A stretch of 64,000 bases of DNA, taken from Antarctobacter albus. Its GTDB lineage: Bacteria > Pseudomonadota > Alphaproteobacteria > Rhodobacterales > Rhodobacteraceae. Where the stretch lies: contig NZ_FMZI01000014.1 in the NCBI RefSeq assembly GCF_900101505.1, positions 1-64,000 of the forward strand, read 5' to 3'. Each line of letters starts with the position of its first letter. Position 1 is the stretch's first letter. Below the pieces are notes generated by a model. That model did no database searches. It was not told the DNA's origin and saw only the letters and a list, made by a program, of their open reading frames with translations. The position numbers and the translations under genes were made by a program. This document shows positions 12,691 through 27,190 of this stretch, in pieces.

Positions 12691-14903
12691 GCAAGGGCAT
12701 GTTCGAGATGGCGGGGAAGGCCGGCAAGGCGATGTTGCGCGCCGTGCCCGCCGGGGCCGCCGCCAATGCCGCCCGCCGCGCCCCTCGTCATACCGACCGC
12801 GCCCGCGCCCGAGCCACGCTGGTCCGCGTGCTGGCCGGGCGGCTTGGGGTCGAGCCCAGGCTCTCGGACATTCTCGAAGCCCTGTCGCCCCGTGCCGGAT
12901 CGGGCGACAGCTATGATGCCGGGGCGCTGCTGGCGGGCCTGCAGGCCGCCGGGCTGATCGCCCATGTCGAAACGCCGGACAGCCTTGTGCCCGGTTTGTG
13001 GCCCGCGCTGGCACTGATGACCAATGGCCAGGCGGTGCTGGTGCTCTCGCAAGAGGGCCACAGCCTGACCATCTACGACGAAACCGCCGCCTCGCGCCGG
13101 TCCGAGGTATCGCTGGGGGAATTCGGCTCGGTCTTTGCCGGGCAACTCCTGCAGGCCGAGGCGCCGGTGCAGGCCCTGTCCGAGGTCCATGCCGCGACCG
13201 ACCGGCAGGCGCATTGGTTCTGGGGCCAGTTCGCGCGCTTTCGCAAGCATTTCGCCGAGGTCGCGCTGGGGTCCTTCGTGGCGAATATCCTCGCGGTTTC
13301 GGTCGCCCTGTTCTCGTTACAGGTCTATGATCGGGTGATCCCGCACCAGTCCGAGGCGACGCTCTGGGTGCTGGCCGCGGGCGCCGTGATCGCTTTGCTG
13401 CTGGAGGCCCTGCTCAAGGTCTCTCGCTCGCAACTCCTCGACGGGGCGGGGCGCCAGATCGAGATGGGCGTCCAGGGCCTGTTGATGAGCCGCCTGCTGG
13501 GGATGCGGTCGGACCTGCCGGGGCGCTCGCCCTCGCAACTGTTTGCCGCCGTGCGCGAGTTCGGCTCGGTGCGTGAGTTCTTTACCGCCTCGACCGTGGG
13601 GGCGCTGGCGGACATCCCCTTCATCTTCGTCTTTCTCCTGCTTGTCTGGTCCATCGCGGGCAGCGTCGTCTGGGTCCTGATCGCGGGCGGCCTGTTGATG
13701 GTCATTCCCGGTTTCTTCCTTCAGAAACGCATGATCCGCCTGACACAGGAAATGCAGGGCGCCAGTGCCCGGCAATCGCGCCTGCTGCAAGAGGCGGTGG
13801 TCGAACTGGACACGATCAAGACCCAGCGTGCCGAGGATCGCTTTGCCCGCGTCTGGGAGGAACTGACCGCCGTTCAGGCGCTGAAATCCTCGGATCAACG
13901 CCGTCTGGCCGCCACGCTGACCTTCTGGAGCCAGGGGGTGCAACAGGCCACCTATGTCGGTGCGGTCATCACCGGAACTTATCTCGTCTTTGCCGGGGAA
14001 TTCACCGTCGGCTCGATCATCGCGGTGGGCATCCTGTCGTCGCGAACGCTGGCGCCGCTGACGCAGCTTGCGGGCATCCTGGCCCGCTGGGGCAACGTCA
14101 AGGCGGCGCTCGACGGGCTGGACGGGATCGCCAATGTGCCCCAGGACCGCGCCGAGGCCCGCCATTACCTGCGCCGCGAACGCCTGCAGGGGCAGTACGA
14201 ACTGCGCGAGGCCAGCTATCGCTACGATCCCGAAAGTGCCGCAGTGCTGGACCTGGACAAGCTGACGATCCAGCCGGGCCAGACCATCGCGGTACTGGGC
14301 GCCAACGGGTCCGGCAAGTCGACACTGCTCAAGCTGTTGTCCGGTCTCTACGCGCCCGCCAGCGGCAAGATCCTGATCGATGGCACGGAAATGGCCCAGA
14401 TCGAGCCGCGCGACCTGCGTCGGTCCATCGGCTACCTGGGGCAGGAGGTCCGGCTGTTTCACGGCACGCTGCGCGACAACCTCAATCTCAGCCTGCTGGA
14501 ACGCGACGACGACCGCCTGCTGGAGGCGCTGGATTTTGCCGGGCTGGGGCAATTCGTGAAATCGCATCCCAAGGGGCTGGACCTCGATATTCGTGACGGC
14601 GGCGAGGGCCTGTCGGTGGGGCAGCGTCAATCCATCGGCTGGGCGCGGCTTTGGCTTCAGGACCCCGATGTCTGCCTGCTGGACGAACCCACGGCCGCGT
14701 TGGACCAGACGCTGGAAAAGACGCTGATCTCGCGGCTGGAGTCCTGGCTGGAGGGGCGCACGGCGGTGATCGCGACGCATCGCGTGCCGATCCTCAGCCT
14801 CGCCTCGCGCACGTTGATCCTGGCGAATGGCCGCATGGCGATCGACGGGCCGCGCGACCAGGTGCTGGATCACCTGCGCACCGTCCAGACGGGGAGCGCG
14901 TAA
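12687..14903 (+). CDS. Type I secretion ABC transporter/permease with degenerate C39-like N-terminal domain
   Basis: A 738-residue half-transporter that powers export of the adhesin across the inner membrane. The N-terminal region (about 35-150) looks like a C39-like peptidase domain without the catalytic cysteine, as in LapB and HlyB-type exporters, where it docks substrate. Membrane helices follow from FVANILAVSVALFSLQVYDRV onward (about 190-430). The ATPase domain has Walker A GANGSGKST (about 535), signature LSVGQRQSIGWAR (about 645), Walker B VCLLDEPTAALD (about 667) and switch His in IATHR. It starts with GTG overlapping the TolC stop and ends directly before the HlyD start. Confidence 0.93.
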   Translation: MSKGMFEMAGKAGKAMLRAVPAGAAANAARRAPRHTDRARARATLVRVLAGRLGVEPRLSDILEALSPRAGSGDSYDAGALLAGLQAAGLIAHVETPDSLVPGLWPALALMTNGQAVLVLSQEGHSLTIYDETAASRRSEVSLGEFGSVFAGQLLQAEAPVQALSEVHAATDRQAHWFWGQFARFRKHFAEVALGSFVANILAVSVALFSLQVYDRVIPHQSEATLWVLAAGAVIALLLEALLKVSRSQLLDGAGRQIEMGVQGLLMSRLLGMRSDLPGRSPSQLFAAVREFGSVREFFTASTVGALADIPFIFVFLLLVWSIAGSVVWVLIAGGLLMVIPGFFLQKRMIRLTQEMQGASARQSRLLQEAVVELDTIKTQRAEDRFARVWEELTAVQALKSSDQRRLAATLTFWSQGVQQATYVGAVITGTYLVFAGEFTVGSIIAVGILSSRTLAPLTQLAGILARWGNVKAALDGLDGIANVPQDRAEARHYLRRERLQGQYELREASYRYDPESAAVLDLDKLTIQPGQTIAVLGANGSGKSTLLKLLSGLYAPASGKILIDGTEMAQIEPRDLRRSIGYLGQEVRLFHGTLRDNLNLSLLERDDDRLLEALDFAGLGQFVKSHPKGLDLDIRDGGEGLSVGQRQSIGWARLWLQDPDVCLLDEPTAALDQTLEKTLISRLESWLEGRTAVIATHRVPILSLASRTLILANGRMAIDGPRDQVLDHLRTVQTGSA

Positions 14904-16085
14904 ATGGCAACCACGGCAACCAATCTTTCCGCGCAACTGTCGAAGGACATCAAGGGGCCATCGCTGACGATCTGGCTTTGCGCCGGGTCGGTCTGGGCCT
15001 TCATCATCTGGGCCAACTTTGCCTGGCTGGACGAAATCGTCCGGGGCGATGGCGAAATCATCTCGTCCTCGCGTCCGCAGATCATCCAGAACCTCGAAGG
15101 CGGTATCCTGTCCGAGCTGATGGTCAAGGAAGGCGATGAGGTCCTGCGTGGCGATGTGCTGGCGCGGCTGCACGGGACACAATTCAGATCCTTGGTCGAT
15201 GACCTGCAGGACCAGATTACCGCGCTGGAAATCCGCCGCCTGCGGCTGGAGGCCGAACTGCAGGGCGCCTCGGTGGTCGAGGTGCCGCGCGACCTGGCGC
15301 AGCGGTCACCGCAGATGGTCGCTTCGGAACAGGCGCTGCTGGCTGCGCGGCAATCGGACTACTTCAAACGACGGCAGGGCGCGGACAGGGTGCTGGAACA
15401 GGCGGCCTCGGAGCTGAAGCTGATGGAGGACCTGCTGGACAAGAAGGTGGTCGCCCTGATCGAGGTGACCCGGGCCCGCAAGGCGCATGCGGATGCTCAG
15501 AAAGCCTATGACGAGATCGTCACCCAGACCGAACTGGTCCGGGCCGAGGAATACTCGGAAACGCTCAAGGAACTGGCGACACTGCAGCAGAACCTCAAGG
15601 CCTCGCAGGATCAGTTGGACCGGACGGTATTGACCTCGCCCATGCATGGTATCGTCAATAAGCTGTCGGTCACGACCATCGGCGGCGTCGTGCGCCCGGG
15701 CGAGGAGATCATGCAGATCATCCCCGTCGACGAAGACCTGTACGTCGAGGCCAAGGTGCGGCCGCAGGACATCGCGGGCATCCGACCGGGGCAGGAGGCG
15801 ACGATCAAGCTGACCGCCTATGACTACACGATCTACGGCACGCTGAAGGGCCGCGTTTCGGTGATCTCGGCCGATACCTTCAAGGACGAGCGCCGCCCCG
15901 AATCGGAGCCGCATTACAAGGTCACGGTACGGGTGGACATGTCGGCCCTGACCGACCGCCAGGTGGCGATGGAAATTCGCCCCGGCATGCAGGCGCAGGC
16001 CGAGCTGCACACGGGGCAGAAAACCGTCCTGCAATACCTGCTGAAACCGCTCTACAAGTCGCGCGAAGCCTTCCGCGAACCGTGA
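14904..16085 (+). CDS. HlyD-family type I secretion periplasmic adaptor
   Basis: A 393-residue membrane-fusion protein linking the ABC exporter to the outer membrane channel. It has one N-terminal transmembrane helix (LTIWLCAGSVWAFIIWANFAW, about 25-45). A split lipoyl/biotinyl-like domain follows (GDGEIISSSRPQIIQNLEGGIL ... VLTSPMHGIVNKLSVTTIGGVV). Between the halves lies a long coiled-coil hairpin (about 95-230). The HlyD C-terminal beta-barrel (YVEAKVRPQDIAGIRPGQEATIKLTAYDYTIYGTLKGRV) completes it. The ATG follows the ABC gene stop with no gap. This is the last gene of the adhesin-export unit. Confidence 0.93.
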   Translation: MATTATNLSAQLSKDIKGPSLTIWLCAGSVWAFIIWANFAWLDEIVRGDGEIISSSRPQIIQNLEGGILSELMVKEGDEVLRGDVLARLHGTQFRSLVDDLQDQITALEIRRLRLEAELQGASVVEVPRDLAQRSPQMVASEQALLAARQSDYFKRRQGADRVLEQAASELKLMEDLLDKKVVALIEVTRARKAHADAQKAYDEIVTQTELVRAEEYSETLKELATLQQNLKASQDQLDRTVLTSPMHGIVNKLSVTTIGGVVRPGEEIMQIIPVDEDLYVEAKVRPQDIAGIRPGQEATIKLTAYDYTIYGTLKGRVSVISADTFKDERRPESEPHYKVTVRVDMSALTDRQVAMEIRPGMQAQAELHTGQKTVLQYLLKPLYKSREAFREP

Positions 16086-16697: not shown

Positions 16698-17593
16698 AGC
16701 TCGGCCTCCCAGGGGGGATTGGCGCCCGCGCGGCTGACGGTGACGGCTGCGGCGCGGACGCCCAGGTCCGCAGCCTTGGCGAGATCGGTGCCCCAGGCTG
16801 CGGCCAGGGCGGGGCGGGTCAGCAGACCGGCCCGATGCAGGCCGGCAAGGAAGCCTGCGTTGAAGGTGTCGCCAGCGCCCACGGTGTCGACCACCTCGAC
16901 TTTTTGTGCCGGGACGCGTGTCTCGCCCTCGCGGGTGACGACATCGACCCCCTCGGCGCCGCGCGTGACCAGCACCACCGCGGTTCCTTCGCGCAGCAAT
17001 GTGCCGGGGTCGGTGCCGAGCCAGTCCATGTCCTCGTCCGAGAGCTTGACGATATCGGCACGGGACAGCATCCGCGCCAGGCGCGCGCGATAGGCGGTTT
17101 CGTCGGTGATGAAGCCGGGACGGATGTTCGGATCGATCATCACGACACGGTCGCCCGCACCGGCGCAGAGCGTGGCGTAGCTGTTGGCCTGCGGCTCCGA
17201 GACAAGGCTGATGCCGCCGAAGAAGAGCGCCTCTGTGCCAAGGCCGAGGTCCGGCAATTCTGGCTCCGACAGCATCCGCCCGGCGGTGTTCTCGTCGTAG
17301 AAGGCGTATTGCGCCTGCCCGTTCGTGAGGGTGACGAAGGCCAGCGTGGTCGGCCGGGACGAGCGGGGGCAGAGGCTGTAGTCGACCTGCGAGGCGGCCA
17401 GGGCCTCGGCCAGGATCTGGCCGAAGAGATCCTGCGACAGCCCGCCAAGATAGCCGGAGGGCGCACCAAGCCGGCCCAGGGCGATGGCCGTGTTGAAGAC
17501 CGCCCCGCCCGCATAGGGCGCAAAGGCCTGTTCCCCTGTGCCCGTCTCGCGGGGCAACATGTCGATCAGTGCTTCGCCGCAGCAGAGGATCAT
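16694..17593 (-). CDS. PfkB-family carbohydrate kinase (fructokinase-like)
   Basis: A 299-residue ribokinase/PfkB-fold sugar kinase. The N-terminus [16 protein letters not shown] followed by [15 protein letters not shown] is the first PfkB signature. The second, [17 protein letters not shown] at about 245-261, contains the catalytic Asp in GAGD. VDIPN-like [12 protein letters not shown] is also standard. The sequence resembles bacterial fructokinases, but the sugar cannot be fixed from sequence alone, and no sugar transporter is adjacent. A promoter-like pair lies at 17624-17650. Its stop overlaps the dtd start. Confidence 0.88.
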
Positions 17594-17623
17594 GGGCGCT
17601 CTCCCTGTTTTTTGTTTGCGCTA

Positions 17624-17650
17624 ACTATACCGCAGTACGGCCCTGGTCAA
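17624..17650 (-). promoter_or_regulatory. Candidate sigma-70 promoter for the PfkB kinase-dtd operon
   Basis: On the minus strand TTGACC (17645-17650) and TATAGT (17624-17629) each match the sigma-70 consensus in five of six positions. The spacer is 15 bases, which is short. The kinase start lies 31 bases downstream of the -10 element. Confidence 0.45.
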
Positions 17651-17708
17651 AGCCCGAGCGGCGTAGAAAGTGGAAGCGTTCGGTCCGCCAGGGGCAAGGC
17701 GCTGCGAT

Positions 17709-18860
17709 TTACTGGTTCACGGCGATCAGGTAGCCGATGCCGCCGGCGACGATCAGGCCCAGCACCACGGCAAAGGTGATTTTCCAGACCGACCAGGGGC
17801 GTTCGCCGCGCACCCGGCCCGACCGGCCGTTGACCACGAACCGATAGCTTTGGCCGCGGTACTTGTAGGCGGCCATCCAGACCGGCAGCAGGACGTGCTT
17901 GAAGGTGATGTCGCGCATCTCGGTGTCGATGTTGTGCACGCGCTGGCGGTCTCCGCCGATGTCGAATTTCACGTCGCGGTGAATCTGCTGGTCCATCTTG
18001 ACCTTGGCCTCGGCGAAACCTTCGTCGAGGTCGACCTGGTAGCCTTCGGCCCGGAAACCGGCCAGGAATTCCGGCCTGTAAGGCTCCATCGCCGAGAGAT
18101 CCCAAGGCTCCAGCGCGTCGGTGTACCGTTTTGGCAGGGCCTTTGAGGCCAGCACCAGAACGTCGTCGAAGAAGCGTTTGACCCGGCCAGACACGCGGGT
18201 CCAGCGGATCTTTTGCACGCGCTCGGTTTCCATCTTGCCGTCGCGCATGACCTGCCGGGTCTCGTAGTAGACGGTGCCGCGCTCGCCGCGATAGTCCGAG
18301 CTCGTGTCGGCATCGAAGGTCCAGAAGGGGACGTAGATGCCGGTCAGCTTGCGTCCCTTGCGGGCGTATTCCTGCAAGCCGTTGGGCGCGAACCAGAGCT
18401 TGCCCAGCCATTCGTTCATCGCATCGTGTGCAGCGCGTTCGTCCAGTGCGAAGGGCAGCAGCCCGCGCGGCTTGATGTGCCGGTGCGTGCCGGTGTCGGT
18501 GACGACGGGCGTGGCGCAAAACGGGCATTCGGCGGAATGGACGTCGGGATCGAATTCCACCTGCGCGGCGCAGTTCGGGCAGGTCGAAACCCGGGTTTCC
18601 TCCATCTCCTGCAAGGGCAGGAGATTGTTCATCGCGGCTTGGAAATCGAGTTCGCGGATGCCGCCCTCCCAGGGGCCGGTGGCGACATCGACCTCGGACG
18701 TGTTGCCGCAGTGTTCGCAGACCAACATGCCCCTGTCCGGGTCGAACCGGAAATCGGCGCCGCACTGGTCACAGGGAAAGCGGTGCTCGTCCGTGGCGTC
18801 CTTGGACGAGGCCGGTGGCGGCGGGGCGTCGGAGGGGGGAGGTGGGGGCAGATCACTCAT
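17709..18860 (-). CDS. Membrane-anchored double zinc-ribbon protein (TFIIB-type ribbon, YdjG-like)
   Basis: A 383-residue protein with two zinc ribbons near the N-terminus: CDQCGADFRFDPDRGMLVC plus EHCG, and CPNCAAQVEFDPDVHSAEC plus PFC. A conserved central domain (LLPFALDERAAHDAMNEWLGKLWFAPN ... YVPFWTFDADTSSDYRGERG) follows, then a single C-terminal transmembrane helix (TFAVVLGLIVAGGIGYLIA). Such proteins are often misnamed primosomal protein N-prime. The B. subtilis YdjG relative is encoded with an SPFH protein and PspA. The nearby SPFH, TelA and XpaC genes support a membrane-stress role. Start 18860 is chosen because the Pro-rich MSDLPPPPP leader directly precedes the first ribbon; the longer frame to 18947 has no similar feature. 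Confidence 0.8.
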   Translation of the reverse strand: MSDLPPPPPSDAPPPPASSKDATDEHRFPCDQCGADFRFDPDRGMLVCEHCGNTSEVDVATGPWEGGIRELDFQAAMNNLLPLQEMEETRVSTCPNCAAQVEFDPDVHSAECPFCATPVVTDTGTHRHIKPRGLLPFALDERAAHDAMNEWLGKLWFAPNGLQEYARKGRKLTGIYVPFWTFDADTSSDYRGERGTVYYETRQVMRDGKMETERVQKIRWTRVSGRVKRFFDDVLVLASKALPKRYTDALEPWDLSAMEPYRPEFLAGFRAEGYQVDLDEGFAEAKVKMDQQIHRDVKFDIGGDRQRVHNIDTEMRDITFKHVLLPVWMAAYKYRGQSYRFVVNGRSGRVRGERPWSVWKITFAVVLGLIVAGGIGYLIAVNQ

Positions 18861-19003
18861 GTCGAAAAAGGCATCAAGCTGTGGCGTTTGTCCGCATCCT
18901 TGCGCGGATTGGTCCCCGGGGAAAGGGAAAATCCCGGTTGCCTGCACTTGGCGCTGCCCGACGCGGAGGCTAGCGTGGCGGCAGCTGGCAAGGGAGCGTT
19001 CGA

Positions 19004-19537
19004 ATGATGCGAGGTCTGGTCCTGGGATTTGTGTGGCTGGCGGGGGCCGCCCTGGCAGAGCCCGTGACCTATGCCTTTGAATGGACCGGCGGTGGCGGCT
19101 ACTCGGTCAAGGGCGCGCTGCAATATGACAGCGCCGCCATCAGTGGCCCCTTCGTCCTTGCGCAGGATCTGAGCTGTTTCGTGATCGAGGGCAGCAAGGA
19201 GGGAGAGCCGGTGGGCCGCTGGGCGCTAACCATGCTGAACGAGGAAACCAGCTGGCGGCTGCATTTCGACCCTGCGTCGGCTAGTTTCCTTGTGGACGGC
19301 GAAGGCATCTGGATGCCCCAGGCCTGGAATATGAACGGCGAGGGGAATGACTGCGGCCAGGACGGGTTCGGCTTCAACATCGGCAACGCCGCGCAGGACA
19401 TCTGCGTCGACAACCGGTTGATCTTTGAAAGCCAGGTGGCACCGGGCGAGCCCTTTCCGGCGATCAGGGTCGAGGGGTTCGACTTTCCCGGCGATGCCTG
19501 CAATGCTCCGCCGATGCTGAGCCTGCTGACGCGGTGA
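19004..19537 (+). CDS. Secreted protein of unknown function
   Basis: A 177-residue protein with a clear signal peptide (MMRGLVLGFVWLAGAALA, cleavage before EPVTYAFEW). The SD AGGGAG stands seven bases before the tandem ATGATG. The mature part is beta-rich and acidic with four cysteines (in DLSCFVIEG, NDCGQDG, DICVDN and GDACNAPP), suggesting two periplasmic disulfides. I do not recognise a family. It is the only rightward gene inside the zinc-ribbon/TelA neighbourhood and is divergent from the zinc-ribbon gene, with which it may share a promoter region. Confidence 0.75.
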   Translation: MMRGLVLGFVWLAGAALAEPVTYAFEWTGGGGYSVKGALQYDSAAISGPFVLAQDLSCFVIEGSKEGEPVGRWALTMLNEETSWRLHFDPASASFLVDGEGIWMPQAWNMNGEGNDCGQDGFGFNIGNAAQDICVDNRLIFESQVAPGEPFPAIRVEGFDFPGDACNAPPMLSLLTR

Positions 19538-19550
19538 CACCCGCGGGTCG

Positions 19551-20141
19551 TCAGGTGTCTTCGGGTGGCCTGACGGCGGCGTGACGATCCCAAAAGGCAA
19601 CGGCCCTGGCATAGGCGTCGGGGTCGATCTCTTGCCCCGACCCGCCGGCCGCGCGCCCCAGGGCGTTGCGCCATTGCGTGATCGGTGGCATCGGTGGCTC
19701 GACCGGTTCCAGAGTGCCTATGATAGAGACCACGCCCCAGTCACAATCGGGAACGCCCTGTTCCTCTGGGTAGTCGGCGGCCTCGGCCACCAGTTGCGCG
19801 TGGCTATAGAGGATCACATCCAGCCAGCGCGCCACGGGCGCCTCGCCTTCGAACCAGCGTTCCAGAACCGCCATTTCGCCCTCACGGCGTGCGGCGTAGC
19901 CGCTGCGCAGCAGGTGGGCGTTCTCCGGGGTGATGGGGGCAAAGCCGCAACGGGTGGGGGTGTCGTTTTCAAGGAACAGGTGTTTGCAGAAAGGGGCATA
20001 GCCATCGGCCAGCGCCGCGCCTCCCGCAATGGCGGCGTTGCATCGGTCGGTCAGCTCTTCGGGTGAGATACCCTCGATCAGCGTGCCGCTGGCGCGCGGC
20101 TGCCAGTTGCGGCGCGCGAAATCGGTCATGGCGATCTGCAT
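19551..20141 (-). CDS. DUF3228 family protein
   Basis: A 196-residue soluble protein, function unknown. The pattern DWGVVSI ... EPPMPPITQWRNALG ... GGSG ... AVAFW matches my memory of the DUF3228 family. The start is placed at 20141 (MQIAMTDFARRNW); the extra 57 residues of the longer frame are Arg-rich and run through a palindromic repeat at 20178-20198, so they are not coding. It lies 73 bases downstream of the SPFH gene in the same orientation and could be the last gene of the TelA cluster or a separate unit. Confidence 0.72.
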   Translation of the reverse strand: MQIAMTDFARRNWQPRASGTLIEGISPEELTDRCNAAIAGGAALADGYAPFCKHLFLENDTPTRCGFAPITPENAHLLRSGYAARREGEMAVLERWFEGEAPVARWLDVILYSHAQLVAEAADYPEEQGVPDCDWGVVSIIGTLEPVEPPMPPITQWRNALGRAAGGSGQEIDPDAYARAVAFWDRHAAVRPPEDT

Positions 20142-20177
20142 GGGGCGTCCTTGCTCTGCGATGTCTGTGGGCGCGAG

Positions 20178-20198
20178 GTCCCGGGGCAAGCCCGGGAC
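20178..20198. repeat. REP-like palindrome, copy 1 (GTCCCGGG stem)
   Basis: GTCCCGGG (20178-20185) and CCCGGGAC (20191-20198) form a perfect 8-bp stem with a 5-base loop, preceded by CGAG. The same stem with a different loop occurs at 53873-53893. Both copies are intergenic. Elements of this shape are common dispersed palindromes in alphaproteobacterial genomes. Confidence 0.7.
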
Positions 20199-20214
20199 GG
20201 GGGCACGCAGTCGC

Positions 20215-21342
20215 TTACATCGGCGGCGGCGGTGGCGGCATGACGGTGAAGAGCTGTGCAAGCTCCGGCACCTCTCCGGCCCGTTTCCAACCGTCCTGCC
20301 CCTGGGTCCAGGCATGGGTTTCGCGGGTCAATTCACCGCTGGCGACCATCTTGCCCAGGTCCGCCTTGGAGTAGGGGCCGGAAGTCTGCCCGTTCTTGGC
20401 CAGGTGCCAGACATGTTCGACCGGCGGTGGCGGCGGCGCCATCGGCGCAGCGGCGGGCTGCGGGCGTCCCTGCTGCTGGGGCGCTGCGCCCCAGGGGCCT
20501 TGCTGGCCCATCGCATTGGCCATCTGCATCCCCATGCCGGCGCCGAAGCCCATGCCCATCGACTGGTCCATCGCGCCGCCCTGGCCCATTGCCTCGGCGG
20601 CCTTCCATTTCATGTGGTCGTCGAGGTTGCCCGCGATCCCGCGCGAAGTCCGCGCATCCAGCGCCTTTTCCACGGCTTCGGGCAGCGAGATGTTCTCGAT
20701 GTAGAGCTCGGCCAGTTCAAGCCCGTACTGGTGGATCACCGGGTCGATGGCCTTGCGGATCAACTCGGCGACCTCGCCGGTATTGGCGGCCATGTCCAGC
20801 ACCGGGATTCCGCTGGCAGAGATGTCCTTGGAAAACTCCTGCACGATGATGTTGCGGATCTGGAAACTGATCTCGTCCATCGTGAATTCGCCGTCGGTGC
20901 CGACGATTTCGGTCATGAAGAGCGCGGGGTCGGCCACCTTGATCGAATAGGTGCCAAAGGCCCGGATACGGGTCGGCCCGAATTCCGGGTCGCGCAGCAT
21001 GATCGGGTTCTTGGTGCCCCACTTGAGGTTGGTGAAGCGGTTGGTGTTGACGAAATAGACCTCGGACTTGAACGGCGACTGGAACGCATGGTCCCAGTGC
21101 TGCAGCGAGGTCATGATCGGCATGTTGTTGGTCTCGAGCATGTAGAGACCGGGGGTGAAGACATCCGCAAGCTGGCCCTCGTGGACAAAGACCGCGGCCT
21201 GGCCTTCGCGCACCGTCAGCTTGGCGCCGTACTTGATTTCGTGGCCTTCACGTTCGAACCGCCAGACCATCGTGTCGCGGGTGTCGTCCGTCCAGTGGAT
21301 GACGTCGATGAACTGTCCCGAAAGGAAATCCCAGATGCCCAT
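20215..21342 (-). CDS. SPFH-domain (YdjI/virion-core type) protein with C-terminal GYF_2-like domain
   Basis: A 375-residue protein. The N-terminus MGIWDFLSGQFIDVIHW and the segment GAKLTVREGQAAVFVHEGQLADVFTPGLY identify the YdjI-type SPFH family, a flotillin/band 7 relative; B. subtilis YdjI helps recruit PspA to membranes. After the SPFH core a Gly/Met/Gln-rich linker (about 255-310) follows. The tail VWHLAKNGQTSGPYSKADLG, then a Trp-containing AWTQGQDGWKRAGEVPEL segment, looks like a GYF_2 peptide-binding domain, and the protein ends in PPPPPPM. It has good SD AGGGAG. It follows the DUF2927 gene by 15 bases, so it belongs to the TelA/XpaC operon. Confidence 0.9.
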   Translation of the reverse strand: MGIWDFLSGQFIDVIHWTDDTRDTMVWRFEREGHEIKYGAKLTVREGQAAVFVHEGQLADVFTPGLYMLETNNMPIMTSLQHWDHAFQSPFKSEVYFVNTNRFTNLKWGTKNPIMLRDPEFGPTRIRAFGTYSIKVADPALFMTEIVGTDGEFTMDEISFQIRNIIVQEFSKDISASGIPVLDMAANTGEVAELIRKAIDPVIHQYGLELAELYIENISLPEAVEKALDARTSRGIAGNLDDHMKWKAAEAMGQGGAMDQSMGMGFGAGMGMQMANAMGQQGPWGAAPQQQGRPQPAAAPMAPPPPPVEHVWHLAKNGQTSGPYSKADLGKMVASGELTRETHAWTQGQDGWKRAGEVPELAQLFTVMPPPPPPM

Positions 21343-21357
21343 GTTACTCTCCCTAAA

Positions 21358-22326
21358 TCAGCTTGGGCCCGTGGTGCCCATCAATTCTGCGGCTTTCTTC
21401 TGCACGATCGGCAGTGCCTCTTCGGCACTCATCCCCGGTTTCAGACGCGGGTCGTAGAGGATTTTCAGCAGCATCTCGTCATGGCCCGTCAGCAGCGCGA
21501 ATTCATCGTCGTCGTTGAAGATGGACGGTCGGGCGCGGGGGCTGTCATTGCCCAAGCCCATGCCCTGTGCCAGTTCCTCGTGGATGCAGGATCGGCGCAA
21601 GAGCGGCGGATGTTCCGACCGGATCACCGCGATGGCGGTGCCATAGTCATAGCCGCCCGGGCTGCGCGAGAAGGCGACCACGACGCAGTGGATGCCGCGC
21701 GGCAGGTTGTCGAAGATGCGCAACGCGGTCGGGTTCACGTCCGGCACGATCTCGCGGATGCGCGGGGCGATCAGGCCGGCGTCGTCCTCGGACATGAACA
21801 GGACGTGGTAATTGGGGTTGCGGTCGACCATCGAGATCGGATGCCCGGTGACCCGCGACAGGCGTGCCGCGAACGAGGCAACCTGCGCGCGAGACTCCGC
21901 GATCTGATCCTTGGGGACGCCGGGGCCGAACTCGGTGGTCATGCGGACCGGGATCGTCCATTTCTTGATCGCGCTGGGCGCGCCGGACGACGGCCGCAGG
22001 CCGGCGCCGCGTTCGTATTCCTCTTCGAGCGCGATGGCCGCGAAGTTCCGGACCAGCATCGTGTCGGTAAAGGCCGTGTCCGGCCCGCCGCCATCGGTAC
22101 GCAGGAGGCCGCGCGCCAGGAGATCGTTCTGCACGCGGCCATAGTATTGCGTCAGGGCTCGGCTGGCGCGCGAGGGCTCTGCAGCCGGCTTTTCGGCGGG
22201 GGCCAGCGTTGCCGGCCGTGCCGCCGGTTTGACCCCCGTCTTGCGCGGCGCAAGATCAGAGCCGACACACCCCGACAGGATCAGGGCAGCCGAAAGTGCC
22301 AATGCTGTTTTCAGGCCGCCCTTCAT
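21358..22326 (-). CDS. DUF2927 lipoprotein with a metalloprotease-like HEELAQ motif
   Basis: A 322-residue putative lipoprotein: MKGGLKTALALSAALILSGC gives a lipobox with Cys at about residue 20. A Pro/Ala-rich linker and then a DUF2927 domain follow (about 90-310). The conserved segment SCIHEELAQGMGLGND near residue 248 resembles a zincin helix (HExxH), but with Gln in the second His position. It could be a degenerate or variant peptidase; activity is not established. It is encoded nine bases after telA and 15 bases before the SPFH gene, with SD GAGGAAG, so it is an operon member acting outside the inner membrane. Confidence 0.85.
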   Translation of the reverse strand: MKGGLKTALALSAALILSGCVGSDLAPRKTGVKPAARPATLAPAEKPAAEPSRASRALTQYYGRVQNDLLARGLLRTDGGGPDTAFTDTMLVRNFAAIALEEEYERGAGLRPSSGAPSAIKKWTIPVRMTTEFGPGVPKDQIAESRAQVASFAARLSRVTGHPISMVDRNPNYHVLFMSEDDAGLIAPRIREIVPDVNPTALRIFDNLPRGIHCVVVAFSRSPGGYDYGTAIAVIRSEHPPLLRRSCIHEELAQGMGLGNDSPRARPSIFNDDDEFALLTGHDEMLLKILYDPRLKPGMSAEEALPIVQKKAAELMGTTGPS

Positions 22327-22334
22327 GGTCTTCC

Positions 22335-23516
22335 TCAGCCCGGAACCGATCCGGCCGCTTCGCGCCGGGACTTGGCAGAGGCAAGCGTATCGCGCAGTTC
22401 GTGCTCCATCTTCTGCAGTTCCTCCTCGGCCTTGGCGCGGCGCGCCTTGCCCTCGTCGGCGATCTGCAGGCTGTCCTCGATGGTGGCGATCAGGTCGGCG
22501 TTGGCCTGCTTGACGGCCTCGATGTCGAAGACGCCGCGCTCCATCTCTTCGCGGATCATCTTGTTGCTGTCGCGCAGGTTGGCGGCGTTCGAGGTCAGCA
22601 GTTCGTTGGTCAGGTCATTGGCGTCGCGCACGGCGGCGGCCGCCTGTTTCGACCGCTGGATCGTCAGCGCCTGCGCCAGCTGGGTTTCCCAGAGCGGCAC
22701 GGTGTTGACGAGGGTCGAGTTGATCTTGGTGACCAGCGACTTGTCGTTTTCCTGCACCAGCCGGATCGAGGGCAGCGACTGCATGGTGACCTGGCGGGTC
22801 AGCTTGAGATCATGCACCCGGCGTTCCAGGTCGTCGCGGGCGCCGCGCAGGTCACGCAGTTCCTGCGCCTTCATCACCTGTTCGCCCTCGGGTGCGGCCT
22901 GCACCTCGGCCTCCTTGGCGGGGATCACGGTGGTGTCGAGTTCCTCGATCTTGGCCTCGCCAGCCGAGATATACAGGGCCAGCTCATCGTAGAACTGCAG
23001 GGTCTTTTCATACAGCAGGTCGAGCGACTTGATGTCCTTGAGCAGGACATGCTCGTGCTTCAGCAGGTCGTCAGTGACCTTGTCGATCTGGCCCTGCACG
23101 GTCTCGAAACGGGCGGTGAATTTGGCGAAGGGCGCGGCGCGGCCCAACAGTTTCTCCCACCAGCTGCGCTCGCGGCGCACGTCCAGCTCGGACACGGAAA
23201 AACCGCGGATCGTGGTGACGATGTTGCGCAGCGAGTCGCCCGCCGGACCCACGTCCTTGTTGCGCACGTCGGTCAGCATGGCCTGGCTGATTTCCTGCAG
23301 TTCGGCCTGGGCGGCAGAGCCGAAGGAGACGATGGAATTGGTATCCGCCATGTCGAGTTCGTCCATCCGCGAGCGGATCTCGCCGCTGACCTCGGCGGGT
23401 GCATCCTTGAGCGGCACGACGGCGTTTGCCTCGACCGGATCGGGCAGAACAACGGCGTTCACCTCGTCGACCAAGGCCACGGTCTTTTCGGCTTCCTGAC
23501 GTATGTTTTCAGACAT
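22335..23516 (-). CDS. telA: TelA family toxic-anion (tellurite) resistance protein
   Basis: A 393-residue, highly charged, mostly helical cytoplasmic protein of the TelA/KlaA family (B. subtilis YaaN). Diagnostic stretches include FETVQGQIDKVTDDLLKHEH, LLKDIKSLDLLYEKTLQFYDEL and the C-terminal TIQRSKQAAAAVRDANDLTN plus TNELLTSNAANLRDSN. The family is linked to resistance to tellurite and to cell-wall-active compounds and is widely encoded beside XpaC proteins, as here. The exact biochemical activity is unknown. It lies 21 bases after the XpaC gene and nine before the DUF2927 gene, so it is co-transcribed with both. Confidence 0.95.
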   Translation of the reverse strand: MSENIRQEAEKTVALVDEVNAVVLPDPVEANAVVPLKDAPAEVSGEIRSRMDELDMADTNSIVSFGSAAQAELQEISQAMLTDVRNKDVGPAGDSLRNIVTTIRGFSVSELDVRRERSWWEKLLGRAAPFAKFTARFETVQGQIDKVTDDLLKHEHVLLKDIKSLDLLYEKTLQFYDELALYISAGEAKIEELDTTVIPAKEAEVQAAPEGEQVMKAQELRDLRGARDDLERRVHDLKLTRQVTMQSLPSIRLVQENDKSLVTKINSTLVNTVPLWETQLAQALTIQRSKQAAAAVRDANDLTNELLTSNAANLRDSNKMIREEMERGVFDIEAVKQANADLIATIEDSLQIADEGKARRAKAEEELQKMEHELRDTLASAKSRREAAGSVPG

Positions 23517-23537
23517 GGGATCCCCCGTTCAATAAAT

Positions 23538-24440
23538 TCATCTTGGTTCGAGATGGACGCCTTCGCGTTGCAGGCGGTCGCGCAGCACCTCGATTTCCAC
23601 GTTCAAGTCTTCGTTGTTGTCCGCCAGCAGCTTGTCGATCTTCTTGTCGAAGCTTTCTTCGAGATCGGTCAGCAGCATCATGTAATCGCTGCGGGCATCG
23701 CGGTCCTGCTGGCGGGAAAAGATGTCCGCGAATTTCACTGTCGCGTCACGCGCACCCATCAGGTAGACGCCCAGGAACTTGCGCGCACCGGTCAGGTCGC
23801 GGGGATCTTCCTCGACCGTGCGGATCATCTCGCGCACCTTGACGGTAAAGCGGTCCACCCGCGCCTCGACCTGGCGGTCCCCGGCGCGTTTCACGGCGTC
23901 GGTCATGGCGTTGAGATAGCTTTCCGCCTCGTCCACGACCCTGGCGACGCGATCCTGGGTGAAGGTGTCGATCCCCTCCATCCCCTTGTCTTTCAGCGGG
24001 TCGATGCCAAAGGCTCCAATGTGCAGAACGCCTGCGGCGCCGCCGAAAATCAGCGGAGCGACCAGGCCGGGTTCCGACCGCCATGCGGCGATGCCGGCCC
24101 CGATACCACAGAGCACGGCGGCGAAAATCTTGCGGGGGATGGCCGGGCGTCGGGCGATCTTGCGTTCGTGGTAGGCGGATTCGGCGATCAGCCCGTCACG
24201 CAAGAGCCAGGCGCCCAACAGCAGCGCCGCCGCACCGGCAAGGCCTGCGGCCATGCCGATGGCACCGTCATTGATCGACAGGATCGCCAGAATGACGCCG
24301 GGAATGAACAGGACATTTGACCGCGCGCCCGCGGGCGAGACCCGGGCTCCGTGGTAGGCCGGGCGGTCCTCGTGCGGCCGGTCGTCGGGGCCGTCCGAAG
24401 ACCCGTCGGGGCTGAATTTTCCGCCGAACTTTCGGGCCAT
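23538..24440 (-). CDS. XpaC-family membrane protein (5-bromo-4-chloroindolyl phosphate hydrolysis family)
   Basis: A 300-residue membrane protein of the XpaC family. It has two N-terminal hydrophobic hairpins (VLFIPGVILAILSI to LGAWLL, and IFAAVLCGIGAGIAAW to GAAGVLHIGAF), joined by the conserved (R/A)-x-(I/V)PRK motif (RRPAIPRK). A long charged helical cytoplasmic tail follows GIDPLKDKG. In Bacillus, xpaC and yaaN (telA) form an operon. The original name comes from an indicator-dye phenotype, and a real hydrolase activity is doubtful. Its SD lies inside the end of the 29-residue ORF just upstream (stop four bases before its ATG), indicating tight coupling. Confidence 0.85.
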   Translation of the reverse strand: MARKFGGKFSPDGSSDGPDDRPHEDRPAYHGARVSPAGARSNVLFIPGVILAILSINDGAIGMAAGLAGAAALLLGAWLLRDGLIAESAYHERKIARRPAIPRKIFAAVLCGIGAGIAAWRSEPGLVAPLIFGGAAGVLHIGAFGIDPLKDKGMEGIDTFTQDRVARVVDEAESYLNAMTDAVKRAGDRQVEARVDRFTVKVREMIRTVEEDPRDLTGARKFLGVYLMGARDATVKFADIFSRQQDRDARSDYMMLLTDLEESFDKKIDKLLADNNEDLNVEIEVLRDRLQREGVHLEPR

Positions 24441-24444
24441 GCGA

Positions 24445-24534
24445 TCAAAGCCCTCCCAGCCAGCCGGTCGCCACTCCGAAAAGCAGCACGATCAGCAGGA
24501 CGTAGCTCACCTTCTGCAAGGCGTTTCCAGACAT
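24445..24534 (-). CDS. 29-residue single-pass membrane peptide between two XpaC genes
   Basis: The ORF encodes a peptide starting MSGNALQKVSYVLLIVLLFG and ending VATGWLGGL. A short amphipathic start is followed by one transmembrane helix of about 20 residues. GGGGAG stands four bases before the ATG. The stop codon is four bases before the XpaC ATG, and the XpaC SD (GGAGGG) lies inside this ORF. This arrangement favours a real gene over chance. It is too short for family assignment. It probably works with the XpaC/TelA membrane complex. Confidence 0.65.
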   Translation of the reverse strand: MSGNALQKVSYVLLIVLLFGVATGWLGGL

Positions 24535-24632
24535 CGCACTCCCCGGGTATCGGCGCTTTTATCGCGCCTTTCCAAGGCGGAACTTAAGGGCAAAAAGCGG
24601 CGCTTGCTAGGGGGAAGTCCCGGAGCGCCACG

Positions 24633-25475
24633 TCAGGCCGCGGATTCCCGGGGCATCCTGTCGATCAGCTGGTCGGCCTGCCTTTCAAATGCGTCGCGGG
24701 CGCTCCGAATGCCGTTTTGCATGGCAAAGCTTTCAAAGCTGTCGGTCATGATATCGAGCTTGGCAAGAAACCGCCGCCGGGCAAAGACGTGGCCCTGCGC
24801 ATTCCAGGCCGCCTCGAGTCGGTCGGTTTCCTGTTCCATGATCTCCACGACCCTGCGCGCGGGCCGATCAAGCCGCTCGGCTGTCCGGGGATCGCCCGAG
24901 ATCTGCCGCATCGGGGTCAGCACCAGCCGGCGTGCGGCCTCGACCTTGAGCGTCAGCGTGGCATCGTCCAGCGCGGCAACGCGATCAGCCAGCGAGGCAA
25001 GGGCCGCTTCGACACTGTCCAGGGCCGCCTCGCGCCGTGCCCGTCCCGAACTCTTGTTGCGCATCGGGTCCGGACCGAAAGCGGAAAGGGCCAGCCCGGC
25101 GGCCAAGACCCCGGTCAGCGCCGGAATCCACAGGTTGTCGTACTTGTGTCCGGCGAGGATCAGCACGACGAGGCCGATCAAGATGGACCCGATCACCTTG
25201 CGAGGCACCCGCGGGGCACGCGCAACCTCGGCATGGTCGTAGTCATGATGAATCTGCTGCCCGGCCGCGATCAGGCGCAGCGCCAGCGAGTAGACCCAGA
25301 GCAGGGCAATCGCTGTGGCAATGCCGGCAAAGGAATCCTGGAAGACCCAGAGCAAAAGGGGGAAGGCGGCCAGAAAGAGGAAGTTCAGACCGGATTCGAT
25401 CTGCGTCCTTTCGACGGCCAGACCGTCAGTGCCCTCGTCAGGGGCGGATTCCGCGGTATCGTGGATATGGTCCAT
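24633..25475 (-). CDS. Second XpaC-like membrane protein (paralogue)
   Basis: A 280-residue protein with the same plan as the XpaC protein encoded downstream. A hydrophobic hairpin (FLFLAAFPLLLWVFQ to ALLWVYSLALRLI), a charged loop ending in VPRK, a second hairpin (VIGSILIGLVVLILAG to GLALSAF), the junction GPDPMRNK (matching GIDPLKDK in the neighbour) and a long helical charged tail. Overall identity between the two is low, so the duplication is old. It lies 16 bases after the 65-residue gene and is probably operon gene 2. It may be annotated as hypothetical elsewhere. Confidence 0.75.
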   Translation of the reverse strand: MDHIHDTAESAPDEGTDGLAVERTQIESGLNFLFLAAFPLLLWVFQDSFAGIATAIALLWVYSLALRLIAAGQQIHHDYDHAEVARAPRVPRKVIGSILIGLVVLILAGHKYDNLWIPALTGVLAAGLALSAFGPDPMRNKSSGRARREAALDSVEAALASLADRVAALDDATLTLKVEAARRLVLTPMRQISGDPRTAERLDRPARRVVEIMEQETDRLEAAWNAQGHVFARRRFLAKLDIMTDSFESFAMQNGIRSARDAFERQADQLIDRMPRESAA

Positions 25476-25491
25476 CCGCCCCGGCGCCTCC

Positions 25492-25689
25492 TCAGGTGTA
25501 GCTCATGATGAAGATCATCAGCCAGAGTGCGAAATAGGCGATGTGTCTTATCAACTGCCCGTTCTTCCGTGCGCGACGGGTATAGGTGGCCACCGCGTCG
25601 AAGGTGTCGACCGCGACCATGCGCAGGTTCCCAACCACCAGCAGGGCGGAGGCGAGGAGAATCGAAAGGGCTATGAATGTTGTCACCAT
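25492..25689 (-). CDS. 65-residue two-helix membrane protein, first gene of the TelA/XpaC cluster
   Basis: A small protein starting MVTTFIALSILLASALLVVG with a second helix HIAYFALWLMIFIMSYT and a basic loop (YTRRARKNGQLIRH) between them. The family was not recognised. Its start codon sits in the loop of a perfect 10-bp inverted repeat (25675-25702), and no SD is visible upstream, so translation is either poor, controlled by the hairpin, or leaderless. The gene ends 16 bases before the XpaC paralogue. Confidence 0.7.
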   Translation of the reverse strand: MVTTFIALSILLASALLVVGNLRMVAVDTFDAVATYTRRARKNGQLIRHIAYFALWLMIFIMSYT

Positions 25690-25702
25690 GAGGACAACAT
25701 TC
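25675..25702. promoter_or_regulatory. Perfect 10-bp inverted repeat around the start codon of the TelA cluster
   Basis: GAATGTTGTC (25675-25684) and GACAACATTC (25693-25702) are exact reverse complements separated by 8 bases that contain the start codon of the first cluster gene (25687-25689). It could be a repressor operator at a leaderless transcript start, or an RNA hairpin that presents or hides the start codon. Confidence 0.6.
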
Positions 25703-25792
25703 GTGCGAAACGGGGCGAAATCGGGGCAAGCGCCGGGAAAAATAAAGAAAAGTTAACGATGGGTGAAGCGAATGCCGCAGCCGGCCCTGTCG

Positions 25793-26632
25793 TTAACCCT
25801 TTCTCGGCTCCCGCCGGCGGCGTTGAACCTGTCGCTTGCCCGGATGCCCGGGCTTGCCGGGTTTGCCCTGTTTCGCGGGCTTGGCCGTGCCCTCCGGCTC
25901 GGGCTCCAGTCCCAGTTGATCGCGCAGGATCTTGCGGCGGACTTCCTGCACCTCGCCGGGTTTCATCTGGCCCAGCTGGAACGGCCCGTAGGACACGCGG
26001 ATCAGCCGGTTCACGGTCAGGCCGATGTCGGTCATGGCGCGGCGGATCTCGCGGTTCTTGCCCTCGCGCAGGCCAACGGTCAGCCAGGCGTTGGCGCCCT
26101 GCTGGCGGTCCAGGCTGACCTGCATCGGCTGGAATTTCTGCCCGTCGACCTCGATGCCCTCGCGCAGCGGTTTCAGCACCTCGTCCGTCGGGCGGCCGTT
26201 GACGCGGACGCGGTATTTCCGCAGCCACCCGGTCGAGGGCAGTTCCAGCTTGCGCTTGATCGCCCCGTCATTTGTCAGCAGCAGCAATCCCTCGGAGTTG
26301 AGGTCGAGCCGTCCGACGCTCATGACGCGGGGCAGATCCTCGGGCAGATCGTCGTAGATCGTGGGCCGTCCCTGTTCGTCGCGCGTGGTCGTCACCAGCC
26401 CGGTCGGCTTGTGATACAGCCAAAGCCGCGCGGCTTCGGGAGCCTCCAGCGGAGTGCCGTCGACGGTGACCTTGTCCGCATCGGTGACGTTCAGCGCGGC
26501 GCGGTCGATCACCTTGCCGTTCACGGTGACGCGGCCCTCGGCGATCATGCGTTCGGCCTCGCGCCGGCTGGCGCGGCCTGCGCGGGCGATGACCTTGGCG
26601 ATTCGCTCTCCGGGTGGGGTCTTGTTTTCCAT
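25793..26632 (-). CDS. 23S/16S rRNA pseudouridine synthase, RluB/RsuA family with S4 domain
   Basis: A 279-residue enzyme that isomerises a specific rRNA uridine. An N-terminal S4 RNA-binding domain (RIAKVIARAGRASRREAERMIAEGRVTVNG, about 10-60) precedes the RsuA-type catalytic domain with VGRLDLNSEGLLLLTND, holding the catalytic Asp at about residue 113. The C-terminal GKNREIRRAM motif follows. The tail after about 240 is basic and low-complexity, typical of alphaproteobacterial RluB-like proteins. Position 2605 specificity (RluB) is likely but not proven. It is divergent from tadA across a spacer with two palindromes. Confidence 0.9.
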   Translation of the reverse strand: MENKTPPGERIAKVIARAGRASRREAERMIAEGRVTVNGKVIDRAALNVTDADKVTVDGTPLEAPEAARLWLYHKPTGLVTTTRDEQGRPTIYDDLPEDLPRVMSVGRLDLNSEGLLLLTNDGAIKRKLELPSTGWLRKYRVRVNGRPTDEVLKPLREGIEVDGQKFQPMQVSLDRQQGANAWLTVGLREGKNREIRRAMTDIGLTVNRLIRVSYGPFQLGQMKPGEVQEVRRKILRDQLGLEPEPEGTAKPAKQGKPGKPGHPGKRQVQRRRREPRKG

Positions 26633-26665
26633 CCACGTCCTTTAGCGCGGCAGCGGGGCCGGGCG

Positions 26666-26708
26666 AAAGGGCCTTCGAAGGCCCTTTGAAGGTGCTTGCA
26701 AGCGCCTT
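26666..26708. repeat. Two adjacent palindromes between the rluB-like gene and tadA
   Basis: A perfect 22-bp palindrome (26666-26687, core GGGCCTTCGAAGGCCC) is followed one base later by AAGGTGCTTGCAAGCGCCTT (26689-26708), palindromic except for one pair. Together they fill much of the 108-base divergent spacer. They could be stacked operators, a cruciform, or dispersed repeat elements. Confidence 0.6.
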
Positions 26709-26740
26709 TCCCCCACCCTCCACCCGCGCTAACAGGTGGC

Positions 26741-27190
26741 ATGACATTCCGCAGCCACATGGACACCGCCCTGGAAGAGGCGCAGGCCGCCGCCCGGCGC
26801 GGCGAGGTGCCGGTCGGGGCTGTCCTGGTCTCGCCCGGTGGCGAGGTGATCGCGCAGGCAGGCAACCGCACCCGGGAATTGAACGACCCCACCGCCCATG
26901 CCGAGGTGCTGGTGATCCGCGCCGGCTGTTCGATGCTGGGGTCCGAACGGTTGCCGGAGCATGATCTTTACGTCACGCTGGAGCCGTGTCCGATGTGCGC
27001 CGCGGCAATCGGTTTTGCCCGTATCCGGAGGCTGTACTACGGTGCGTCCGATCCGAAATCCGGCGGCGTGGCGCAGGGGCCGCGGGTGTTTTCCCACCCG
27101 CAGTGCCATCACGTGCCGGAAATCTATGATGGCATCGGCGGGGACGCGGCCTCGGGGTTGCTGCGTGACTTCTTTGCGGCGCGGAGGTGA
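26741..27190 (+). CDS. tadA: tRNA-adenosine(34) deaminase
   Basis: A 149-residue cytidine/deoxycytidylate deaminase-fold enzyme that converts A34 to inosine in tRNA-Arg(ACG). The zinc site is complete: HAEV (His and catalytic Glu, about residue 49) and PCPMCAAAI (two Cys, about 81-84). The start at 26741 ([17 protein letters not shown]) is chosen because the longer frame adds only Pro-rich, non-family sequence. It is followed four bases later by the rluE-like gene, so the two are co-transcribed. Confidence 0.94.

Follow-up and report, generated by a model that had tools for sequence, protein, structure and literature searches.

Two gene groups of Bacillus subtilis and telA of Listeria are among the closest described systems to the gene cluster analysed here. 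The sigma-W regulon, as listed in PMC3498285, includes both B. subtilis groups, xpaC-yaaN and pspA-ydjGHI. The SPFH protein of the second group, YdjI, is described as likely soluble, as needing the membrane proteins YdjG and YdjH and as required for bringing PspA to the membrane, with YdjH (TPM) linking YdjI and PspA (PMC8581546). More widely, SPFH proteins are described as chaperones for complex assembly (PMC11237479; PMC8581546). A Listeria telA mutant is reported to be 4-fold more susceptible to nisin and 2-fold more susceptible to tellurite (Collins 2010, cited in PMC12791056), and the mechanism of the Listeria TelA is stated in PMC12791056 as unknown. The stretch studied here, hereafter the window, comprises 64,000 nucleotides (nt) of the 5.26 Mb genome of Antarctobacter albus (contig NZ_FMZI01000014.1, positions 1 to 64,000). 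It carries a leftward cluster between positions 17,709 and 25,689 in which XpaC and TelA family genes stand with genes for a DUF2927 lipoprotein, an SPFH protein with a GYF_2 domain (SPFH-GYF) and a zinc-ribbon protein (ZnR). A sequence-only reading of the window had proposed that this cluster unites modules which are separate in Bacillus, and the comparison supported it.

Conservation of the cluster was followed in four samples. The order-level sample was composed of 149 Rhodobacterales genomes, all marked as one family and including the genome of the window itself (G000). The locus sample held one locus per genus from 71 other genera with TelA, in which the genes were located by tblastn, while the named-locus sample held 23 loci with a second XpaC gene, XpaC1, some of them from the same species as the training rows of the S29 profile described below. 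The outgroup sample consisted of 28 loci outside the family; in 4 of them the TelA profile used had no match. Whole-genome searches were added for ten genomes, chosen mostly as exceptions, and transmembrane (TM) segments were judged by hydropathy. TelA was found in 147 of the 149 genomes of the order, one of them having a degraded copy (G085). Of 115 genomes sampled from the class 11 had TelA, and once two members of the family were set aside this became 9 of 113. Across the 71 loci, tblastn detected TelA in 71, XpaC2 (the XpaC gene next to TelA) in 69, DUF2927 and SPFH in 67 each and ZnR in 62. All five genes stood in the canonical order on one strand in 59 loci, and the order and strand of whichever core genes were present was unchanged in 71/71, so that the gene order, which the sequence-only reading had proposed to check across Rhodobacteraceae, is conserved. 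Overall, the XpaC-TelA-DUF2927-SPFH/GYF-ZnR core is family-wide and, within the sampled genomes, DUF2927 is the family's own addition to the unit. With the window included, the XpaC2-TelA gap measured -20 to 50 nt in 63 of 70 cases, as did the TelA-DUF2927 gap in 64 of 67.

The core was found to be modular, with an XpaC-TelA block and an SPFH-ZnR block. The two blocks were on two contigs in genome G124 and approximately 13 kb apart in G110, and G081 kept XpaC-TelA-DUF2927 with SPFH and ZnR both absent. A small pattern of joint loss was also seen in the whole-genome searches. Genomes G011 and G106, which have no TelA, were also without XpaC, ZnR and an SPFH match above the cut-off (G011 gave a single weak SPFH match, E 2.5e-4), and both retained DUF2927. 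No XpaC, SPFH or ZnR was found in G085, the genome with the degraded TelA. Outside the family, XpaC-TelA-SPFH without DUF2927 was present in 3 of the 28 outgroup loci, two from other families of the class where ZnR follows (L115 and L116) and one from another class of the same phylum (L189). Annotated records showed SPFH-ZnR pairs in Vibrio, Comamonas and Tsukamurella, an SPFH-ZnR-TPM triad in Enterococcus and XpaC-TelA-TPM in Vescimonas. The family ZnR profile matched the ZnR of the Enterococcus triad (E 1.9e-51) and the XpaC2 family profile matched XpaC of B. subtilis (E 1.2e-5). ZnR is the predicted counterpart of the YdjG-type protein, the comparison being made through the Enterococcus ZnR rather than YdjG itself. 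Distant TelA relatives were found on 602 plasmid records, 551 of them predicted conjugative and mainly from Acinetobacter (220) and Enterobacter (182).

Some neighbours of the SPFH and ZnR genes were recorded in addition. On a Vibrio coralliilyticus plasmid (L242, 2093-8154) 0.9 kb separates an SPFH-ZnR pair from a run of genes on the opposite strand, one with a TIR domain and two hypothetical, a possible defence context. On a Novosphingobium plasmid (L247, 6001-12768) SPFH adjoins DUF4178, DUF350 and polyamine synthesis genes, an arrangement that resembles the polyamine-linked operons described in PMC11237479. A membrane protein of about 177 amino acids (aa) was present in 15 loci (e.g. L090:13018-13720), mostly between SPFH and ZnR. 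This membrane protein looks cytochrome b561-like.

A 29-residue open reading frame (ORF), S29, stands directly upstream of XpaC2. Under a filter with set limits (20-40 aa, TM-like, stop codon -8 to +6 nt from the next start), XpaC2 was preceded by a candidate in 69 of 70 cases (69 loci and the window), and at the lone miss, L085, a longer ORF was found under a looser scan. The same filter at seven other gene starts gave 0/72, 2/67, 0/67, 2/55, 1/60, 2/50 and 2/33, and at random ATGs it gave 13/1440 and 10/1440, the 13 including at least one S29. The S29 proteins could be aligned, with a rough consensus of xxLQKLAYxLLxxLxxxVxxGxLGGx. The ratio of nonsynonymous to synonymous differences (pN/pS) was 0.42 in the S29 frame and exceeded 1.1 in the other two, with a similar pattern in the 22 members of 29 aa and the 20 members of 27 aa. 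Within the sampled loci, an S29 profile at E <0.01 matched solely ORFs adjoining XpaC2 (69, which were its training rows), and it matched the ORF before XpaC2 in 23/23 named loci, some of which share species with the training rows. In the held-out genus g7, probably Paracoccus judging by annotated gene order, S29 was found directly 5' of XpaC in all six genomes (E 1.4e-10 to 4.4e-4), and since XpaC is displaced in this genus, S29 goes with XpaC. On these comparisons the 29-residue ORF is a conserved gene for a predicted single-TM microprotein, which apparently represents an undescribed membrane protein family; searches of published text, whose coverage mostly excludes subscription papers, gave among the matches listed no description of the cluster or of the microprotein. 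Outside the family, single-TM ORFs of 26-47 aa precede XpaC in L115, L117, L189 and Thiodictyon under looser criteria applied post hoc (L115 and L117 by eye). A filter applied to the outgroup loci gave the L189 ORF and two doubtful TTG-start ORFs in L201, and none was found before the XpaC matches of L192, L194, L195, L118, L119 and L120; L115-L117 could not be judged by it, L116 having only 77 nt upstream. Three Firmicute loci showed no S29-like ORF upstream of XpaC.

A bipartite promoter-like element was found upstream of S29. In 17 of 69 cases its strict pattern (TTCCCCCTAGCAAG followed by CYTARRTTTC) begins 63-95 nt upstream of S29. The pattern falls within the XpaC1-S29 gap in 18 of the 23 named loci, and the 71 loci and the window stretch contain 2 occurrences at other places. 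A weight matrix scored above the control threshold in 34 of 69 S29 upstreams versus 4 of 404 control upstreams; 17 of these 34 had served for training, and the weaker sites include some at other distances. Half of the S29 upstreams showed no sign of the element. The site at 24575-24620 was the only strong one within the 464 kb searched of the 5.26 Mb genome (score 56, next 6). The 98-nt gap before S29 probably holds the promoter of the ancestral operon, with S65-XpaC1 placed upstream of that promoter. The sequence-only reading had taken the close spacing as support for one operon. A single transcript is doubtful at the XpaC1/S29 gap because the conserved promoter-like element lies inside it. 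Sigma-70 and terminator scans of the region gave counts not above those of shuffled sequence.

XpaC1 is a true paralogue of XpaC2 by profile (E 1.6e-28) despite having no PF10112 match at the Pfam gathering score, and the second XpaC predicted at this position thus held up. The 23 named loci with XpaC1 come from Mameliella, Maliponia, Antarctobacter, Tropicibacter, Pelagimonas, Salipiger and others, and besides the window, 3 of the 71 genera carry XpaC1; the nearest named genome by XpaC1 is Mameliella sp. CS4 (88%). In a tree the 16 XpaC1 rows formed a single clade with support 100/100, and their position relative to XpaC2 was not settled. The small membrane protein S65 precedes XpaC1 in 22/23 named loci by ORF position, and tblastn matches to it were obtained in 23/23 named loci and 3/71 genera. 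A profile-profile comparison with hhalign, made after a likeness had been noticed by eye, aligned the C-terminal half of S65 with S29 (score 22.6, probability 47%, E 2e-4). The best of 200 column-permutation controls scored 15.8 and 0/200 reached 22.6, while the S29 profile did not find S65 at E 10 in the window, L048, L057 or L063. S65 is regarded as a probable paralogue of S29 because of the profile-profile comparison, and S65 with XpaC1 would then be, in the simplest reading, a duplicated microprotein-XpaC pair. Blocks similar to the one at 25701-25757 upstream of S65 were seen by eye in many of 22 named loci, most clearly in the nearest relatives, and this block differs from the 24575-24620 element.

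We consider the chances evenly balanced that the cluster encodes a core membrane-protection (envelope stress) complex of Rhodobacterales. In its first module, of anchor and client, the multi-TM XpaC together with the TM microprotein S29 would hold soluble TelA at the inner membrane. In the second, the zinc-ribbon/TM protein ZnR would hold the TM-less SPFH-GYF scaffold at the membrane, and the scaffold could gather or assemble TelA where the membrane is under stress, in the way that YdjI acts on PspA. The family's own addition, the DUF2927 lipoprotein, may act as a periplasmic sensor or effector, and in the lineage with S65-XpaC1 the second pair, probably under its own promoter, might be an alternative anchor. 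TelA, anchored by XpaC and S29, is proposed as the client of SPFH-ZnR because of the YdjI-PspA precedent, the sigma-W co-listing, the Listeria telA phenotype and the absence of PspA. PspA (PF04012) gave no match in the genome of the window and was absent from 101 of the 149 genomes of the order. The sequence-only reading had called an envelope complex sensing membrane or cell-wall damage plausible, and we infer such a function with support from the sigma-W listing and the role of YdjI in PspA recruitment. A further-reaching form of this proposal is tentative and on balance doubtful. TelA would be the functional counterpart of PspA in most Rhodobacterales, placed on the damaged inner membrane by the SPFH/ZnR scaffold and the XpaC anchor, with the 27-29-residue TM microprotein as the obligate partner of XpaC and a dedicated promoter, and the whole would form a near-universal, PspA-independent repair system centred on a new microprotein family.

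Several observations weigh against a joint membrane-protection function. The 48 of 149 genomes that have PspA all have TelA as well, which means that TelA is not a simple stand-in for PspA, and no TPM domain (YdjH) was matched among ten cluster-region proteins. ZnR was not found in 9 of the 71 loci, ZnR and SPFH were on different contigs in genome G007, and no ZnR was detected in 12 of the 23 plasmid records with an SPFH match. In all six genomes of genus g7 XpaC lies away from TelA, and loci L039 and L047 have XpaC2-TelA-SPFH-ZnR with DUF2927 absent. The joint loss concerns three genomes, two of which keep DUF2927, out of ten that were mostly picked as exceptions. Finally, flanking genes are conserved too, such as a pseudouridine synthase kept in 59/71 loci, so that part of the synteny is regional.

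This last point bears on the view that XpaC-TelA and SPFH-ZnR are independent modules, neighbours by inherited synteny with no joint function. The separated blocks of G124 and G110, an SPFH-ZnR gap of 150 nt or less in only 23 of 55 cases (window included) and the conservation of unrelated flanking genes all agree with it. We nevertheless find it quite unlikely: both modules are missing together from G011 and G106 and nearly so from G085, the adjacency recurs in outgroup loci L115, L116 and L189, and the B. subtilis relatives share one regulon (PMC3498285). Moreover, the XpaC2-TelA-DUF2927-SPFH unit was retained in 9 of the 12 loci without a detected upstream flank (pseudouridine synthase, tadA). 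The near-universal presence in the order would also suit a housekeeping complex for inner-membrane assembly or quality control, of the SPFH chaperone type, which serves specific membrane proteins or lipoproteins rather than stress repair, and SPFH proteins are indeed described as complex-assembly chaperones (PMC11237479; PMC8581546). Such a role appears unlikely, since in B. subtilis the relatives of both modules belong to the sigma-W regulon (PMC3498285) and the phenotype reported for the Listeria telA mutant is antimicrobial susceptibility (PMC12791056).

A tellurite or oxyanion resistance operon is suggested by the family name of TelA and by its relatives on the 602 plasmid records, many of those shown being annotated 'toxic anion resistance protein'. 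These relatives are distant, with less than 60% identity in 596 of the 602 records, and few of the records have a detectable SPFH (23), ZnR (12) or XpaC (2, in a search that misses Firmicute XpaC). In Listeria the tellurite effect (2-fold) was below that of nisin (4-fold) (PMC12791056), and we regard a dedicated resistance operon as very improbable. An anti-phage or TIR-linked defence module, for which the Vibrio plasmid pair near the TIR-domain gene could be cited, is considered extremely unlikely: PADLOC gave no match for six cluster proteins, and the near-universal core distribution is unlike that of defence islands.

TelA and XpaC are named after side phenotypes, tellurite and X-phosphate hydrolysis respectively (the latter taken from the family name). 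A near-universal operon joining them to an SPFH/zinc-ribbon module of the type that positions PspA would suggest a direct, testable role for both. The microprotein, which stays with XpaC even when XpaC relocates, offers a handle on how XpaC works, and the cluster could explain inner-membrane protection in the many Rhodobacterales without PspA. New here are the S29 microprotein tied to XpaC, the probable S65-XpaC1 duplicate pair and the bipartite promoter-like element.

All genes named in the sequence-only reading were found where it had placed them (Table 1). The gaps from S65 to DUF3228 were, in order, 16, 98, 4, 21, 8, 15 and 73 nt, in agreement with the spacings of 4-21 bases and the gap of about 100 bases given there. 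The Pfam score of TelA was 359.2 bits against a cut-off of 30 and covered model positions 5-331 of 332, that of XpaC2 (PF10112) was 93.3 bits versus 29.8 and the Band_7_1 score of SPFH was 330.7 bits versus 24. ZnR gave only sub-threshold Pfam zinc-ribbon matches, and its eight Cys were kept in all 47 aligned sequences. A distant ZnR relative with 33% identity was observed at a separate site of the same genome. No cluster protein matched NCBIfam over the cut-off and no Rfam family was above threshold within 17000-26800. Searches against solved structures by sequence gave weak matches for TelA and XpaC, mostly to helical proteins (best E 0.14 and 0.045), which were not used. Near the cluster, an ABC exporter and an HlyD-type membrane fusion protein form a type I secretion-like pair at 12687-16085 on the plus strand.

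Table 1. Features of the cluster region in the window and further matches in the same genome (E, expected value).
Feature	Coordinates	Strand	Remarks
Upstream block of the S65-XpaC1 pair, promoter candidate	25701..25757	-	seen by eye, without statistics
S65, 65-aa membrane protein	25492..25689	-	one clear TM segment and a second hydrophobic stretch below threshold; directly 5' of XpaC1
XpaC1, 280-aa XpaC-type membrane protein	24633..25475	-	XpaC2 profile E 1.6e-28
Bipartite promoter-like element	24575..24620	-	5' of S29; TTCCCCCTAGCAAG, then CYTARRTTTC, fixed spacing
S29, 29-aa single-TM microprotein (predicted)	24445..24534	-	4 nt before XpaC2
XpaC2, 300-aa XpaC family membrane protein	23538..24440	-	PF10112, Pfam E 2.4e-26
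TelA, 393 aa	22335..23516	-	PF05816, Pfam E 2.6e-107; no TM segment by hydropathy
DUF2927 lipoprotein, 322 aa	21358..22326	-	PF11150, Pfam E 3.3e-59
SPFH-GYF, 375 aa	20215..21342	-	Band_7_1 (YdjI-type) E 4.5e-99 and GYF_2 E 1e-21; no TM segment by hydropathy
DUF3228 protein	19551..20141	-	Pfam E 1.1e-59
177-aa protein	19004..19537	+	signal-peptide-like start (by eye); no family matched
ZnR, 383 aa	17709..18860	-	two zinc ribbons (CxxC...CxxC), central domain and C-terminal TM segment (hydropathy)
Further matches in the same genome (two DUF2927, one distant ZnR)	G000:C22:350540-351139, G000:C21:235781-236302, G000:C34:397053-398054		

DUF2927 had been described as a lipoprotein with a zincin-like motif. 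The lipoprotein part was upheld, with Cys20 at the lipobox position preceded by a hydrophobic segment at residues 8-26, and Cys20, C214 and C247 present in all 67 aligned sequences. The motif reads H-E-E-x-x-Q-G-L-G-L-x-N-D in the same 67 sequences, with H249 in 98% and E250, E251 and Q254 in 100%; a canonical HExxH zincin is not supported by this HEExxQ form without a second His, and metal may be bound by another set of residues. No relative of solved structure was found for DUF2927 by sequence profile, and two further DUF2927 matches were present in the genome.

In the window, DUF3228 and a plus-strand 177-aa gene stand between SPFH and ZnR. DUF3228, which had been listed as a possible member, was at the locus in 0/71 genera and 5/23 named loci; it was dropped as lineage-specific and is probably an insertion outside the system. 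The 177-aa gene was found beside ZnR in 2/71 loci and 14/23 named loci, although ZnR itself was not seen in L125, and in L143 the gene is present with ZnR elsewhere. It was likewise dropped as lineage-specific and is probably outside the system, being a neighbour of ZnR in some relatives.

Compared with known systems, the cluster is like pspA-ydjGHI of B. subtilis in having a YdjI-type SPFH protein without a TM segment and a double zinc-ribbon/TM protein. The Enterococcus SPFH-ZnR-TPM triad, which is homologous to cluster genes, consists of the gene types of ydjI, ydjG and ydjH. In contrast to pspA-ydjGHI, the SPFH protein of the cluster carries GYF_2, and TelA, XpaC, the microprotein and DUF2927 are linked to it instead of PspA. 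The cluster is also like xpaC-yaaN of B. subtilis, with which Listeria lmo1966-lmo1967 was grouped as a comparison system: XpaC directly precedes TelA, and both were detected as homologues by profile. It differs in that the B. subtilis XpaC is shorter (204 aa) and has no adjoining SPFH or ZnR gene in the stretch viewed. KdpF, CydX and AcrZ are single-TM accessory subunits of approximately 30-50 aa coupled to a larger membrane protein. S29, set alongside them by description, resembles them in size and in its single TM segment, with XpaC as its partner. Finally, the PspA/SPFH operons of PMC11237479 (2024) and PMC9239133 (2022) likewise join a band-7 protein to an envelope-stress client, and a word search of the main text of both papers returned neither "TelA" nor "XpaC". 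Unlike those operons, the cluster has TelA in the place occupied there by PspA.

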